A stretch of DNA of 53,657 nucleotides from Verrucomicrobiota bacterium (lineage in GTDB: Bacteria > Verrucomicrobiota > Kiritimatiellia > SS1-B-03-39 > UBA6053). Shown one piece after another: positions 40,384 through 47,473 of the stretch (positions are counted from its first letter, which is position 1; each line of letters begins with the position of its first letter). The notes below the pieces were generated by a model. It made no database searches. It saw only the letters and a program-made list of their open reading frames with translations, and was not told where the DNA came from. Made by a program: the position numbers and the translations under genes. The stretch is from assembly GCA_020831625.1 (NCBI GenBank), contig JAFIGD010000036.1, positions 1-53,657 of the forward strand, in the 5' to 3' direction.

Positions 40384-43300
40384 ATGACCTTCCTCCCGCT
40401 TCTGGACGACGCTTTCCTCGCCTCCCACTGGCACGCCGAATAAGAGGACTTCACCGCCTCCCCGGAAGCCGAAGCCCTGCACCAGCGCCTCCGCGCCTGG
40501 GCCGCCCGCGAAGTCCTCAAGGAAACCGCCTCCGAAGCCGCCTTCACCCAGCGCTTCTTCATCGAAACCTGGGGCTACACCCTCCAGGGCGGGGACACCG
40601 AAGGTCTCTACACCTGCCGTCCCCAGTTCGAGGTCGACCGCGCCGGACAAAGCGGCGGCCAGGGACGCGCCGACCTCGCCCTGGGTCATTTCGGCGCCGG
40701 CACCGACGGCGTGCCGCAGGTGCTCTGCGAATTCAAAGACATCCGCTCCGGCCTCGAAGCCCGCCAAAACCGCAAAGGCAACGCCCGCAGCCCCGTGGAC
40801 CAGGCCTTCGACTACCTCCAGGAGGCCCACGCCTCCCGCGACCGCGACGCCCTCGTCAGCCCCTCCTGGGCACTGGTGACCGACATGCGCGAGTTCCGCC
40901 TCTATTCCCGCCTCAAGGGCAAAGCCCAATACCAGGGCTTCGTCCTCAGCGACAGCCCCGATCCCCGCGTCCCCGCCCTGCTCGGCAACTCCGTGGCCGC
41001 CCGCTTCCGCCGCTTTGTTTTCTGGCGGCTCTTCCAGCCAGACCTCCTCCTCGCCAAACGCGGCGACGCCGCCCTCGACAGCCTGCTCCGCGACCAGGTC
41101 ACCCGCGAAAAGGCCATCGAAAAAGCCTTCTACCACGAATACCGCGCCTACCGCGAACACCTCTACCAGACCATCCGCGCCGCCAACCCCGGCTACACCG
41201 GCTCCCGCGGCAAACTCGTCCGCCTTACCCAGCGCTTTCTCGACCGCTGCATCTTCATCCTCTTCTGCGAGGACATGGGCCACACCCTCCGCTATCCGCC
41301 CGAACTCCTCCGCGACATGCTCATCGAGGAGAGCAACAGCAAATACTACGAAGCCGACGACTCCGCCTGCTGGGACCACATGAAACGCCTCTTCCGCGCC
41401 ATGCGCGACGGCGGCAAATTCGGCCCCCACCCCATCGACCGCTTCAACGGCGGACTCTTCGAGGAGGATCCCGAACTCGAATCCCTCCACATCCCCACCA
41501 AGGTCTACTGCGCCGAACAGCAGGGCGCGGGCGGCGGCGACAGCCTCACCCGCCATCCCCTCACCCTCCTCTACTTCTCCGCCGCCTACAACTTCGGACA
41601 CCGCGACGGCTCCGGCGAACGCGTCATCAACCTCTACACCCTCGGACGCATCTTCGAGCAGTCCATCACCGAACTCGAAATCATGGAGGCCGAGGCCGAC
41701 GAACGCCCCTCCATCAACAAACTCACCAAACGCAAAACCGACGGCGTCTACTACACCCCCGAATGGGTCACCCACTATCTCGTCGAAAACACCGTCGGCA
41801 CCCGCCTCGCCGACATCAAAAGCGAACTCGGCTACCCCGCCCTGCCGCCTCTCGACGAAACCGCCATCGCCGAATACCGCACCTTCCAGAAAGACAAACG
41901 CCGCACCGCCAAAACCGCCGGACTTCACCGCGACTTCCTCGCCAACTACCGCGGCCGCCTCGAACACCTCCGCGTGGTCGACCCCGCCTGCGGCTCCGGG
42001 GCTTTCCTCATCCAGGCCCTCAACCGCCTCATGACCGAATACCAGTGGATCGCCGGGGAACAGGAACGCCTCGAAGGCCAGCGCGGCCTCTTCGATCAGG
42101 ACGCCCTCATCCGCTCCATCCTCTCCCACAACCTCTACGGCGTGGACATCAACCCCGAGTCCGTCGAAATCACCAAACTTGCCCTCTGGCTGCACACCGC
42201 CGCCCCCGGCAAACCCCTCTGCGCCCTCGACCGCAACATCCGCTGCGGCAACAGCCTCGTCGATCCCGACTTCTATGCCACCCGACAGCTCGACCTCTTC
42301 AGCGAAGACGAAAAAGAGCGCGTCAACGCCTTCGACTGGAAAAGTGCCTTCCCCGAAGTCTTCTCCCACGGCGGCTTCGACTGCGTCATCGGCAATCCCC
42401 CCTACATCAAACTCCAGCACTTCCGCCGCGCCCAGGCCGAAGTCGCCGAATACATCTCCAACCATTACAACAGCGCCAGCGCCGGAAACTGGGACATGTA
42501 CCTGCCCTTCATCGAAAAAGGCGTCACCCTCCTCCATCCCAAGGGTCGCATGGGCTACATCGCCCCCAACGTCTGGATGGTCAACGACTACGGCCAGGCC
42601 CTCCGGAAATTCGTCAAAGAAAAAGGGGCCCTCGACCGCTGGCTCGACTTTAAAAGCCACCAGGTTTTCGACGAAGCCACCACCTACACCTCCCTCCAGT
42701 TCTTCCGCGGCCAACCCTCCCCCCACATCGCCTGCGCCTTCGCCCCCGACGGCAACATCGGCCATGTGCATTGGAGCGAGGCGGAAAGCATCCAGTATTC
42801 AAACCTTCAAAACGATGAGGCCTGGATCATCGCTTCAAGTGAGGAAAGATTTGCAAAAGAATCCCTCAGTGGATCTGGCGTAAGACTGGGTGATGTGGCC
42901 GATGGTATTTTTGTGGGGATTCAAACCAGCTCAAATGATGTATACCACTTGGAGAAAATTGCTCCGGGACTCTATAAAACAATCAAAGACTCATCCAAAA
43001 CCGTCGAACTTGAAGATGACCTTTTACATCCACTGGTAAAAGGTCCGGACACGAAGCGATACACTGTGCCTAAACCTCACCTGGCGATTCTTGTACCCTA
43101 TAAAGTTCAATCTGGCAGAGCTTTCCTTATACCCGCACAGGAAATGGCAAGGTTCTACCCCAAAACATGGGCCTATTTAAAAGAGGACGAACAAGAACTG
43201 AGAAAACGTGAAAATCGTAAAATGGATAACGATGATTTTTGGTGGGGGTACAACTACCCCAAAAATATCGACAAGCAGAAGGAACCAAGACTACTTGTAG

Positions 43301-44169
43301 CCGGCACAGCACCTGGCCTCCGATTTTTCTGTGATTCAAACGGTGAGTTTACCCAAGACGACAGAAGGGTATTCGCCGTAACCCCAAATAATCCTGATGA
43401 TCTCTGGTATTTTCTGGGAATCTTAAATTCGCCACTGGCTGAACAGTTTTTCAGAACTGTCGCAAGGCCAAAAGCAAATGGTTTCTTTGACATTGAAAAA
43501 CAGTTTCTTGAAGAAATCCCCATCCCCGACGCCAGCCCCGAACAGCGCCAACAAGTAGGGGATCTCGCCAAAGAGCTACAAGACCTGCACACCCAGCGCC
43601 GCGACCTCGTGGACGCCCTCGACATCCGCCTGAACAGTCCGCAAACCGAACCCCTGCGCCCCAAACCGGCCGCAAACTGGATCTGGGCCCAGGTCGGCAC
43701 CAAAACCAGCTTCCTCGATCATCCCGACCTCCCCAAGGGGCTCAACAAAACCCAAATCAAAGCCTGGTCCAAAGCCCGCCACGAAGACAACCTCGCCGAA
43801 CAGCTCGACACCCTCGACGTGCTCCTGCAACCCGGCGCCACCCTCCGCGTCTACAACACCGAAGACCAAATCACCCTCCACATCAACGACCGCCCCGTCC
43901 TCACCCTCTACGACAAACCCGACACCCCCTTCCTCGCCGCCCAGTGGCGACACACCCTCCGCCCCCGCAACGTCACCCAAGCCTACAACGGCAAAAAACT
44001 TCTCAACGATTTGTTAAACCTCAAACAAACCCAGGACCAAGGCCTAAAATCCAAAATCCTAAACCTCGACAACCAAATCACCGACCTGGATCAGGTGATC
44101 ACCGCGAAAGAGGCGGAAATGAATGAGATCGTTGCCGGGTTGTATGGCTTGGATGCCGGCACCCTTTGA
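40384..44169 (+). CDS. Type IIG restriction-modification enzyme interrupted by an early nonsense codon
   Basis: Read from ATG 40384 this would be a 1261-residue single-chain restriction-modification enzyme, but codon 20 is TAA (40441-40443). Past it the frame stays open to 44169. In order: an N-terminal PD-(D/E)XK nuclease (GRADLALGHF with Asp97; CEFKD with Glu116 and Lys118), a helical linker (about 150-480), an N6-adenine methyltransferase with DPACGSGAF near 533 and NPPY near 671, a target-recognition region (about 796-1045) and a C-terminal helical part. The only plausible restart is GTG 40711, which would lose Asp97, so the nuclease would be dead while the methyltransferase could remain. 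Base composition changes sharply in the recognition region. Length fits Eco57I/MmeI-like enzymes. Confidence 0.85.
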
Positions 44170-44911: not shown

Positions 44912-44947
44912 AGGTGGAGGGTGGGAACTCTTGACCCGGTGATTTGC

Positions 44948-45055
44948 GCGGACCTTCAGCCCGCGTCTGGTTTTGATTCGAATATCCCAGCCCGCCAACA
45001 GGCCTTCAGCCCGATGGCGGACTGGGCTGATATCGGCGCGGGCCTTCAGCCCGAA
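44948..45055. repeat. three short CCTTCAGCCCG repeats
   Basis: ACCTTCAGCCCGCG at 44951-44964, GGCCTTCAGCCCGATG at 45001-45016 and CGGGCCTTCAGCCCGAAC at 45039-45056 share the same core within 110 bases. The third forms a CGGGC/GCCCG hairpin. The rest of 44912-45338 has no gene that I can support. Confidence 0.5.
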
Positions 45056-45338
45056 CGAGTCGTTTGAATCTGCGATCCGTTTCGTCAATGATGCCCGTCA
45101 AACTGAAGTCTGAATGATAAGACATCTCCCCATACCCCAAATCCACCCCTCCGACCTGTATCCCCACATGGGGCGCTCTCTCTGCGCCACACCAGTCCTC
45201 GACCACATGCTTGCCTATTATGGGCCTGAGTCCCGCCGGAAGAAGCACGGAAGCTGGTGGAGGACAGTCTGACGAAAACCCTGGGAGCCCTGCACAAGGA
45301 GTTGCGGAAGCGCAAGCTGGCGCCCGGGGGATTGGACA

Positions 45339-45608
45339 GGAGCGCCAATCTCCGCATTGGCGGGGCGAAGGGGGTCTTCCCACGGGAGCGCCGGTCTCCG
45401 CACCGGCTGGGGCAAAGGGGGTCTTCCCACGGGAGCGCCGGTCTCCGCACCGGCTGGGGCAAAGGGGGGCTTCCCGCCGCGCGCGCATTTCCGCCGCAAG
45501 CCGATGCGGAGATCGGCGCTCCCGTGCCTTTCCGCCGCAAGCCGGTGCGGAGACCGGCGCTCCCGTGCCTTTCCGCCGCAAGCCGGTGCGGAGATCGGCG
45601 CTCCCGTG
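45339..45608. repeat. REP/BIME cluster left of the RAYT transposase (3 direct + 3 inverted units)
   Basis: Three direct units begin GGAGCGCC.GTCTCCGC at 45339, about 45386 and 45432, spaced about 47 bases; the first has an AAT/ATT base-pair variant of the stem. They are followed by three inverted units ending in GGCGCTCCCGTG, spaced about 41 bases. Each unit contains the hairpin GCCGGT/ACCGGC or a compensated variant. The same layout occurs at 46331-46510. Confidence 0.85.
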
Positions 45609-45671
45609 AAAAAACGTCCCGCTTGCATCATCCTGCTTGACTCACCGCGTTAAAACAATACATCCGTTTTC

Positions 45672-46316
45672 ATGCGAATGCAACACTCCCTCTGTACGGT
45701 CGGCACCCCGCTGCTCAGAAATTGGGACGTCACTCCCGAGACGTCATCGCGCGGGTATCTTCCCCACGAATTGGGCGGGGGACTGGTGCAGCATGTAATT
45801 CTTCATCTCGCCGACTCCATGGCCGTGAAGGCGCTGGAGCGCATGCGCCGGGAGGTGGAGCATCTGCCTGACGAGGAGTCGAAACGGGAGCTGGCGGAGA
45901 AAATCGAGGCTTGGTCCGATGCGGGACACGGCTGCTGCGCCCTGCGTCAAGCCGCCCATGCCGTCAAGATGCGGGACACCCTGCTGCATTTTCACGAAAT
46001 CCGTTACCGCCTCTTCGCCTGGGTTATCATGCCCAATCATGTGCATGTGCTTTTTGAAACCTTTCCCGATTGGCCAATGGACGGGGTGGTGAACGGATGG
46101 AAGAAATGCAGTGCCACAGAAATTCTCAGGGACCACCAATCGCTGCCCCGCCCCTTGTGGCAAAGGGAGTTTTGGGACCGCTACACCCGCAACCTGCGTC
46201 ATTTCCGCAAAACCGTGGACTATATACACCAGAATCCGGTCAAAGCCGGTCTGGCCTCCCGCGCCGAAGATTGGCCCTGGAGCACCGCCGCCGCCTGGGC
46301 TTCGTTTTTGGGGTGA
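45672..46316 (+). mobile_element. REP-associated tyrosine transposase (RAYT, Y1/HUH family)
   Basis: A 214-residue single-strand DNA transposase of the IS200-like HUH superfamily. The HUH motif is NHVHVLFE within WVIMPNHVHVL, preceded by RYRLFAW; the C-terminal RAYT signature WQREFWDRYTRNLRHFRKTVDYIHQNPVKAGL contains candidate catalytic Tyr residues, and the family ending EDWPWSTAA is present. The frame is intact. REP clusters of the same type flank it at both sides (45339-45608 and 46331-46510), as expected of an enzyme that acts on such palindromes. RAYTs are usually single-copy domesticated transposases. The start at 45672 has an alternative ATG at 45678. Confidence 0.9.
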
Positions 46317-46330
46317 AGGGGGGCCTCAAA

Positions 46331-46510
46331 GGAGCGCCAATCTCCGCATTGGCGGGGCGAAGGGGGTCTTCCCACGGGAGCGCCGGTCTCCGCACCGGCT
46401 GGGGCAAAGGGGGTCTTCCCGTCGCACGTGCATTTCCACCGCAAGCCGATGCGGAGATCGGGGCTCCCGTGCATTTCCGCCGCAAGCCGGTGCGGAGACC
46501 GGCGCTCCTG
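46331..46510. repeat. REP/BIME cluster right of the RAYT transposase (2 direct + 2 inverted units)
   Basis: Direct units start at 46331 (AAT/ATT variant) and about 46377, followed by two inverted units ending GGGGCTCCCGTG and GGCGCTCCTG. Order and orientation are the same as in the left cluster, including the AAT/ATT variant coming first, so the clusters look like duplicates. Confidence 0.85.
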
Positions 46511-46540: not shown

Positions 46541-47120
46541 TCACCCATCCAGCTCGTTGAAGATTCGCTGCATGCGTTGGATGCTTCGGCTGGACACTCC
46601 GGCCTCTTTTGCCAGGGTGCCGAAATCCGCCACGGCTCCGCGCACCTGCTCAAGAATCTCCACGGCATCCCGCTCACGCAGATCGGCCTGTTTGGCCAGT
46701 TCCAGCAGGTGGGTCCGACGGGGGTGCCGGCCTTCCCCGGCGATGGACAGGGTGTGCCATCCGTTCGGTCCCGGATTGTAGGTGAAGTCGTAGAGGGGCG
46801 ACAGACGCCACGTCCCGTCCCCATCCATAAGAAAGGCGAAATTCTTCATGTGATCATCCCGGTTGGATGCCAGCACATTCAGGCAGATCCGCCGAAAGAG
46901 TTCCCGCGTTTGCGCGTAATCGCGGGTGAGGGCCCGGGTGAGACGGAACAGCAGCTCCGCCTCCTCGCCCGATGTGCGGAAGTCCGCGTGCAGGAGCCCG
47001 GCGGCGGAGTGCAGATGCAGCCGCCGCCCCGGAGCGGGCCGGTCAAAACGGCGCACCGCGAAAAAAGAGCCAATGCGTGTGGAAGGCTGAAAACCGCAGG
47101 CGGACGTCCAGGCGCTTCAT
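46541..47120 (-). pseudogene. hipA: hipA toxin kinase with a large internal deletion
   Basis: The start is preserved: ATG 47120 overlaps the hipB TGA (ATGA) and encodes MKRLDVRLRF, a normal HipA opening. After a few codons the frame closes. In another frame from about 47080 the sequence resumes as FFAVRRFDRPAPGRRLHLHS and continues through AAGLLHADFR, NVLASNRDDHMKNFAFL (catalytic Asp and Asn region) and LSPLYDFTY to the end at 46541. Family members have about 400-440 residues; about 230 internal codons, covering the N-terminal domain and part of the kinase N-lobe, are missing. The kinase cannot be active. The antitoxin gene upstream is intact. Confidence 0.85.
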
Positions 47121-47473
47121 GCGGTTGCCGCTTTCTGTTTGCGCGGGCGCACCCGCTGACGGGTCGGAGGTTCCTTCTCCAGGGCTTCGAGATCCCCGGG
47201 AATCGTGGAAAGCCGCAGACGTTCCCGCAGGGTCCGATCCACCTCATCCAGGATCCCCAAGGCTTGAAAGACCCGCAAGACTGCGTCCACACTCCCATGC
47301 CCTTCGCGCTCCAGCCGCGACAAGGTGCTCACCGGCACGCCGGAACGGGATGCCAACATGGGCAGCGTCCACTCCTGCCGCTGCCGCAGATTTCGCAGCC
47401 ATTGCCCCAAATTCTCCCGGACTTCGCCGGGACTGGACAGTTGGAACAAAGAAAAATGATCGGGTGAACTCAT
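47117..47473 (-). CDS. hipB: HipB-like antitoxin, XRE-family DNA-binding protein
   Basis: A 118-residue protein with an XRE helix-turn-helix (LGQWLRNLRQRQEWTLPMLASRSGVPVSTLSRLEREG, about residues 22-60) followed by a short helical region and a basic C-terminal tail (RQRVRPRKQKAATA). Its stop overlaps the hipA start, the normal hipBA arrangement. It should repress its own promoter and would neutralise HipA, but that toxin is deleted here. A copy of the double-hairpin element lies 65 bases upstream of its start. Confidence 0.85.
   Translation of the reverse strand: MSSPDHFSLFQLSSPGEVRENLGQWLRNLRQRQEWTLPMLASRSGVPVSTLSRLEREGHGSVDAVLRVFQALGILDEVDRTLRERLRLSTIPGDLEALEKEPPTRQRVRPRKQKAATA

Follow-up and report, generated by a model that had tools for sequence, protein, structure and literature searches.

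REPtrons pair a gene for a RAYT (TnpA-REP) protein with short palindromic REP sequences, and have been described from Escherichia coli, Stenotrophomonas and Pseudomonas. Elements of the IS200/IS605 group insert on the 3' side of a short sequence involved in recognition. In the accessible text of the defining papers, a REP carries the 5' tetranucleotide GT[A/G]G (PMC3686654, PMC6006769), and the accessible part of PMC3733652 adds the variants GYAG, GYRG and GTMG. That same text describes Opitutus terrae as highly enriched in GTAG repeats. In Pseudomonas fluorescens SBW25, inverted doublets (REPINs) are held to be the replicative unit and singlets their remnants (PMC3116915). For the group 3 enzymes tested, the accessible text of PMC8266576 gives CT as the RAYT cleavage site and reports that cleavage depends most on the last two bases of the tag; it also calls the mechanisms of REP dissemination poorly understood. 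Here we describe a RAYT locus whose hairpins carry the tag GGAG and a conserved 3' tail.

Results

A RAYT gene between two clusters of tagged hairpins

The stretch analyzed (the window, 53,657 nucleotides) is contig C53 of a Verrucomicrobiota assembly (G000; 4.89 Mb, 111 contigs, 96% complete), which we compared with three congeners (G001, G002 and G003). An intact RAYT reading frame (45672–46316, forward strand, 214 aa; supported by ORF, profile, alignment and fold) lies between a left cluster, A, of 3+3 hairpin units and a right cluster, B, of 2+2. The first-pass annotation had proposed this identical layout, and all ten units were indeed located and the frame is open. By pattern search, the ten units flanking the gene follow GGAGC-GCCNNT-CTCCGC-ANNGGC, nine of them matching this 23-letter pattern exactly and the one at 46445 differing at the outermost stem pair. 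The direct units of cluster A, on the forward strand, are A1 (45339–45361, stem AAT/ATT), A2 (45385–45407) and A3 (45432–45454), the latter two with stem GGT/ACC; unit alignment places a 13-nt tail GGGGCGAAGGGGG after A1 (45362–45374, also recovered by 13-mer search) and a tail GGGGCAAAGGGGG after A2 (45409–45421) and A3 (45456–45468). The inverted units follow on the reverse strand: A4 (45500–45522, GAT/ATC, tail type TTGCGGCGGAAA), A5 (45541–45563, GGT/ACC) and A6 (45582–45604, GAT/ACC with one mismatched pair). Cluster B consists of B1 (46331–46353, AAT/ATT; 13-nt tail GGGGCGAAGGGGG at 46354–46366, found in the same two ways) and B2 (46377–46399, GGT/ACC; aligned tail GGGGCAAAGGGGG at 46401–46413) on the forward strand, then B3 (46445–46467, GGAGCCCC, the unit with one mismatch) and B4 (46486–46508, GGT/ACC) on the reverse strand. 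In both clusters the AAT/ATT unit leads, direct units come first and inverted units last. Direct units have a period of 46–47 nt and a tail of GGGGCGAAGGGGG type, and inverted units a period of 41 nt and the tail TTGCGGCGGAAA or a variant. Aligned to each other, the clusters are identical at 186 of 192 columns, with 99 gap columns, B being short of one direct and one inverted unit relative to A. Each contains an inverted pair that forms a REPIN-like core (45429–45526 on the left, 46374–46471 on the right), and the two cores are identical at 92 of 98 aligned positions.

Around the locus we also observed a Type IIG restriction-methyltransferase of 1152 aa (40711–44169), with matching parts on G001 contig C87 that lack the middle; a dispersed intergenic repeat (44931–45113) that matches five contigs of G001 (C87, C209, C290, C74 and C7); and, on the reverse strand at 46541–47473, the C-terminal part of HipA (171 aa, HipA_C) with a HipB-like HTH protein, a pair that looks truncated since the ORF list holds no full-length HipA frame.

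The RAYT protein scores 89 bits against the NCBIfam model REP_Tyr_transpos (NF047646, cut-off 80) and 36.8 against Pfam Y1_Tnp (cut-off 23). Its best solved relative is PDB 4er8, a complex of E. coli TnpA-REP with a hairpin, both by sequence (6.4e-13) and by fold (rank 1, 2.6e-8, TM 0.46/0.58, for a predicted model with pLDDT 79 in which residues 1–31 are unreliable). N122, H123, V124, H125 and Y184 are invariant in all 16 aligned relatives, so that neither the HUH motif nor the tyrosine shows the disruption that the first-pass annotation had named as counting against its reading. The 21 residues separating W163 from Y184 equal the E. coli spacing of W94 to Y115 (numbering from the accessible text of PMC6006769 and PMC8266576). 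At the tag-contact positions listed in the accessible part of PMC6006769, the alignment to 4er8 sets W163, Q164, D169, R170 and R173 against E. coli W94, Q95, E100, H101 and R104; W, Q and R are shared with the known REPtrons, and D and R have been reported there for subclasses 2.5 and 2.7 in the same text. The family score, the agreement with 4er8 in sequence and fold and the invariant HUH and tyrosine residues bear out the initial description of a RAYT with cognate palindromic units. We conclude, with a probability of roughly three in four, that the locus is a REPtron, in which a single-copy HUH/tyrosine enzyme is accompanied on both sides by its cognate REP-like hairpins.

The hairpins form a multicopy family with a conserved stem

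A genome-wide search for the units had been proposed as a check, with their absence elsewhere as a refutation. Allowing one mismatch, the 23-letter pattern occurs at 24 places in G000 (18 exact, six with one mismatch), ten in the window and 14 outside it. The exact pattern GGAGCGCCNGTCTCCGC was found seven times in the 4.89-Mb assembly, five of these in the window, and its reversed control not at all; with up to three mismatches allowed there are 52 matches to the 23-letter pattern and 12 to its reverse, so the weakest of these are partly due to chance. Searched with one fewer fixed letter and at most one mismatch, G001 has 232 units, G003 81 and G002 14, with reversed controls of 0. The covariance model R1 matches 33 times in G000, at least 154 times in G001, 19 times in G002 and 92 times in G003, about 150 candidates having been scored per genome, which makes the G001 figure a lower bound. 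Among eight other members of the family or order, R1 found none in seven and two in G009. The hairpin family is multicopy and nearly restricted to the genus, and as a multicopy palindrome beside a tag it corresponds in these respects to a REP as defined in the accessible text of PMC3686654 and PMC6006769.

The compensated AAT/ATT variant had been taken as a sign of selection on the hairpin, and the wider family supports this view: in 157 of the 163 exact units taken from four genomes, the bases are complementary at both stem pairs left free by the pattern, far above shuffled expectation. Both are Watson-Crick in 16 of 18 units of G000, 96 of the first 100 exact units listed for G001, 8 of 8 in G002 and 37 of 37 in G003, against shuffled means of 6.3, 43.8, 4.2 and 16.7, respectively; none of 10,000 shuffles reached the observed value in G000, G001 or G003, and 168 did so in G002. 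The six non-complementary units differ at one pair (five units) or at both (one unit); two of them are in G000, one with a wobble and one with an A-C pair. Across 19 aligned units (16 distinct), 100% of cells are paired versus 94.3% in shuffles, and 8 cells are changed on both sides versus 2.5. The number of pairs with a double-sided change among these 19 units is two, which is not above shuffles (159 of 500 reach it).

Other hairpins were seen alongside this family. A second one, GGAGCGCAAATCTCCGCATTTGC, has a different tail and also occurs in tandem, about 52 nt apart (G000 C27, C59, C79 and C107; L045–L047). A sub-family with loop CGCCG in place of CTCCG is found on G000 contigs C9, C42, C69, C78, C100, C2, C66, C92, C107 and C110 and at many G003 sites; its aligned copies end in the 13-nt tail GGGGCGAAGGGGG of the main family or a variant.

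The tag departs from the published REP tags

All ten units in the window are tagged GGAG, unlike the GT[A/G]G of known REPtrons. Within the accessible text of PMC3733652, PMC6006769, PMC8266576 and PMC3686654 no word starts with GGAG, and a wider literature search found no such tag, both searches being of a kind that longer strings and figures would escape. GGAG is also present at other RAYT loci. In a survey made without assuming any tag, a hairpin present in three or more copies surrounds 50 of 97 RAYT-like loci (G000 contributes three of these) and 11 of 30 further loci, some of which are the same places as in the first set; the tags include GTAG, GTGG, GGAG and others, and some of the hairpin sets may be unrelated repeats. 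Hairpins with GGAG and with loops containing TCC accompany RAYTs distant from that of the window (L083, L137, L089 and L060), L083 being in a bin labeled Proteobacteria.

The idea that GGAG marks a single clade was discarded, as the protein tree needs 10 changes, at least seven of them forced by well-supported branches (15 rows with tags assigned by hand, the label of L061 coming from a separate GGAG/GTAG/GTGG scan; several tag-labeled rows, that of the window included, have one base between tag and stem). GGAG-tagged families often have the loop TCC, the reverse complement of GGA. A pairing of loop and tag is at best a weak lead: GGAG occurs with other loops (L107, L113, L140 and L151), GTGG occurs with loop TCC (L073, L074 and L171), and among the GTAG REPs of Stenotrophomonas the loops include CAT and GTT (our reading of the table in PMC3686654). 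We also rejected, as a general rule, a tag read as ACAG by alignment to Pseudomonas GTAGGAGC. AC[A/G] precedes most units in G000, but across relatives the bases before GGAG vary while GGAG is constant, in a scan that looked for GGAG, GTAG or GTGG and to which other tags are invisible.

The hairpin disperses and the gene does not

The first-pass annotation had further supposed that gene and cluster may copy together, and had called for a search for other RAYT copies. This part is not supported. G000 has a single close copy, its next relatives being 37% (C80) and 26% (C91) identical, with no unit of the GGAG family seen beside either; Pfam Y1_Tnp matches a total of ten loci, of which three are nearly full length (84–92 bits). 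G001 likewise has one close RAYT (77% identical, the other seven matches at 23–41%), flanked on both sides by a GGAG hairpin unit as in the window, and the surroundings differ between the two genomes. With one close copy per genome in G000 and G001, the combination of gene and cluster does not multiply here: the hairpin unit disperses, the gene does not. G003, an assembly of 500 contigs at 88% completeness, yields just two RAYT matches, at 33% and 29% identity, and hence the enzyme may be unneeded there now, or lost, or not assembled. In a collection of named species we found five loci with RAYT relatives, three in Opitutae bins (43–47% identity) and one each in a Proteobacteria and a Lentisphaerae bin (31% each).

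Movement of the whole REPtron, gene and clusters together, either rarely or by horizontal transfer, seems quite unlikely to us. It would fit the accessory nature of the neighboring genes (Type IIG restriction-modification, HipA/HipB-like) and the differing surroundings, as the right flank of the G001 gene (L085 1096–6959) has no match anywhere in the window and the genes flanking RAYT in the window are scattered over several other G001 contigs. Yet each genome has a single close copy, rearrangement at repeats would account equally for the lost synteny, and the left flank in G001 is unseen, its contig beginning at the left cluster. Left and right inverted pairs agree at 95 of 99 columns in G001, as they do at 92 of 98 in G000, versus 74 of 87 to 76 of 89 between the genomes; the higher agreement within a genome points to homogenization of both flanking clusters. 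Comparison with the G001 copy gives dN 0.142, dS 1.74 and dN/dS of about 0.08 (NG86, 213 codons, with dS near saturation): the RAYT gene is under purifying selection.

A 40-nt unit occurs singly and head to tail

When units with a GGGGCGAAGGGGG-type tail are aligned (19 units, 17 from G000 and two from G001), conservation extends over 40 nt: AC[A/G] or AAA, GGAGCGCC, RRT, the loop, AYYGGC, 0–3 free bases and GGGGCGAAGGGGG or a near variant. This conserved unit, AC[A/G]-GGAG-C-hairpin-n-GGGGCGAAGGGGG, occurs singly and in head-to-tail arrays with a 40-nt period. The nine single copies in G000 have the first tail type (GGGGCGAAGGGGG) or a variant, and C76 and C110 additionally carry pairs with the second, TTGCGGCGGAAA. 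The 81 units of G003 comprise 43 single units, 27 with a direct neighbor only and 11 with an inverted neighbor, 70 thus being single or head to tail; direct neighbors are spaced by exactly 40 nt in 14 of 18 cases. Similar arrays are present among the loci fetched from G001.

Here the system parts from the SBW25 REPINs. As far as the accessible description of these goes, both have a RAYT flanked by inverted pairs, and tandem arrays exist in both, but only 11 of the 81 G003 units have an inverted neighbor within 150 nt. The figures are 4 of 14 in G002 and 14 of 24 in G000, all 14 lying at three sites (C53, C76 and C110), and by the counts in these three genomes the inverted pair is not the dispersed form.

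The hairpins might instead be kept for a host function, at mRNA 3' ends or as binding sites for gyrase or another protein, with the RAYT as a domesticated maintenance enzyme. The low dN/dS, the single RAYT copy and the compensated stems are all compatible with such a role, which we nevertheless consider unlikely, because the tandem arrays, and unit counts that range from 14 to 232 between congeners, suggest spread and not fixed sites.

A 13-mer borders the units and occurs alone

The 13-mer GGGGCGAAGGGGG is present 20 times in G000, 154 in G001, 5 in G002 and 82 in G003 (reversed controls 3, 1, 0 and 1), and 0–2 times in each of six other genomes (reversed controls 1–3). With units called at up to one mismatch, the G003 copies divide into 29 that follow a unit without preceding another, 19 that precede a unit without following another, 12 with a unit on either side and 22 with no adjacent unit; conversely, the exact 13-mer stands upstream of 31 of the 81 units, downstream of 41 and on neither side of 30. 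We inspected 20 of the 22 unit-less copies by eye: seven adjoin a hairpin that is degenerate, cut or of another kind (L307, L308, L310, L313, L315, L322 and L323 (at 15)) and 13 adjoin none, L306 having a remnant about 40 nt upstream. Among the fetched loci, units without a preceding unit have the 13-mer upstream (up to three mismatches) in 24 of 43 cases in G001 and 17 of 24 in G003, compared with 11–15% for shuffled upstream letters. In G000, to which the window belongs, only 1 of 20 first units has it, and this genome thus contradicts what appears to be a rule of the congeners. The presence of the 13-mer before the first hairpin and alone in two congeners suggests insertion 3' of it.

One host repeat in G003 allows filled and unfilled sites to be compared: the unfilled site on C375 (L319) has the same repeat on both sides as the one-unit site on C126 (L178), and C190 (L200) has this repeat with three units. 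Left out of the comparison were L183 and L215 (a unit precedes), L310 (degenerate unit) and L251 (unit count underestimated). The dispersed repeat, with right part GTGGTGGAAAAGCCTGAACATGGG or similar and 0 to 3 units at one place, was observed on C228, C375, C126, C190, C362 and C244, and the copies on C375, C126 and C190 have both flanks in common. A host repeat with GGGGCGAAGGGGG-AAAGGAG on C279 is found once without a unit and twice with one. Unfilled sites were found solely on such paralogous repeats within G003; searches with C110 and the right part of the window in the congeners yielded mainly repeats and rearranged pieces, and no clean unfilled orthologous site. At L178/L307 (both G003:C126:3459), another hairpin, GGAGCCCACCGAC-CTCG-CGTCGGTGG, directly follows GGGGCGAAGGGGGACA, as if several hairpin families shared the use of the 13-mer.

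A possible reading, which we think less likely than not, is that the 40-nt monomer itself moves: RAYT, acting in trans, would insert it precisely 3' of GGGGCGAAGGGGG and, the unit ending in the same 13-mer, left and right cleavage sites would be identical, the target recreated and arrays of exactly 40 nt formed. Both the occurrence of k hairpins with k+1 13-mers and the 40-nt period would follow if each unit were inserted 3' of a 13-mer copy. GGAG keeps AG as its last two tag bases. Against a mechanism of this kind, the consensus 40-mer has CT only in the hairpin loop and none at its ends (the TCTTCCC spacer of the clusters in the window does contain CT), sites with 0 to 3 units on one host repeat fit slippage equally, and G003 has 81 units yet RAYT matches of only 33% and 29%. 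The arrays could instead be satellites, the unit having spread once and expanded and contracted by slippage or recombination between 13-mers, with no part for the transposase. We find this rather doubtful. Arrays of exactly 40 nt, the host repeat with no unit (G003:C375), one (C126) or three (C190), and the lack of a close RAYT in G003 all agree with it, and slippage between 13-mers would account for array length too, but not for units and lone 13-mers in many unrelated contexts, and it leaves the stem covariation unexplained by itself.

Discussion

REPtrons, and REPs in Verrucomicrobia, are already known; what sets this locus apart is the GGAG tag together with the 13-nt tail. With the REPtrons of E. 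coli (TnpA-REP, PDB 4er8), Stenotrophomonas and Pseudomonas the locus shares the HUH and tyrosine enzyme, REPs on both sides, one close RAYT per REP type and many dispersed REPs. It differs from them in the tag, in the stem of only 6 bp with a 6-nt loop and the 13-nt G-rich 3' tail of the window unit, and in the copies of G003, mostly single or head to tail and not inverted pairs. Opitutus terrae, going by the accessible text, shares the phylum (by nearest named relatives), the richness in REPs and the several REP families per genome, but its repeats are described, in text without figures, as tagged GTAG or GTGG. With IS200/IS605 (IS608, ISDra2) the system has single-strand HUH transposition in common, and the 13-mer may be likened to their target sequence; unlike them it has one close copy and not several near-identical ones, and the protein scores 34.7 against the IS200 model, below the cut-off of 55. 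We class it among the RAYT systems, its REP being a variant.

Judging from sequence comparison, the most likely mechanism is one in which the RAYT works in trans on the tagged hairpin in single-stranded form. The enzyme would bind the hairpin together with the GGAG tag 5' of it where DNA is exposed, for instance on the lagging-strand template, cleave beside the hairpin and join it elsewhere. In the congeners, the unit would enter 3' of a GGGGCGAAGGGGG sequence, and the copy of GGGGCGAAGGGGG at its own 3' end would allow a further unit to enter in tandem. The clusters on either side of the gene would be the substrate reservoir of the enzyme, mutually homogenized and growing by tandem duplication of their arms, and the RAYT gene itself would not multiply.

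The copy is short, conservation and the exact 40-nt tandem period define where it ends, and filled and unfilled sites can be compared on one host repeat, so that target choice and the joint left by excision or insertion are directly testable with oligonucleotides. If the proposal is true, the 40-nt monomer would rank with the smallest transposable units for which a target can be defined, and it uses GGAG, unlike the published GT[A/G]G.
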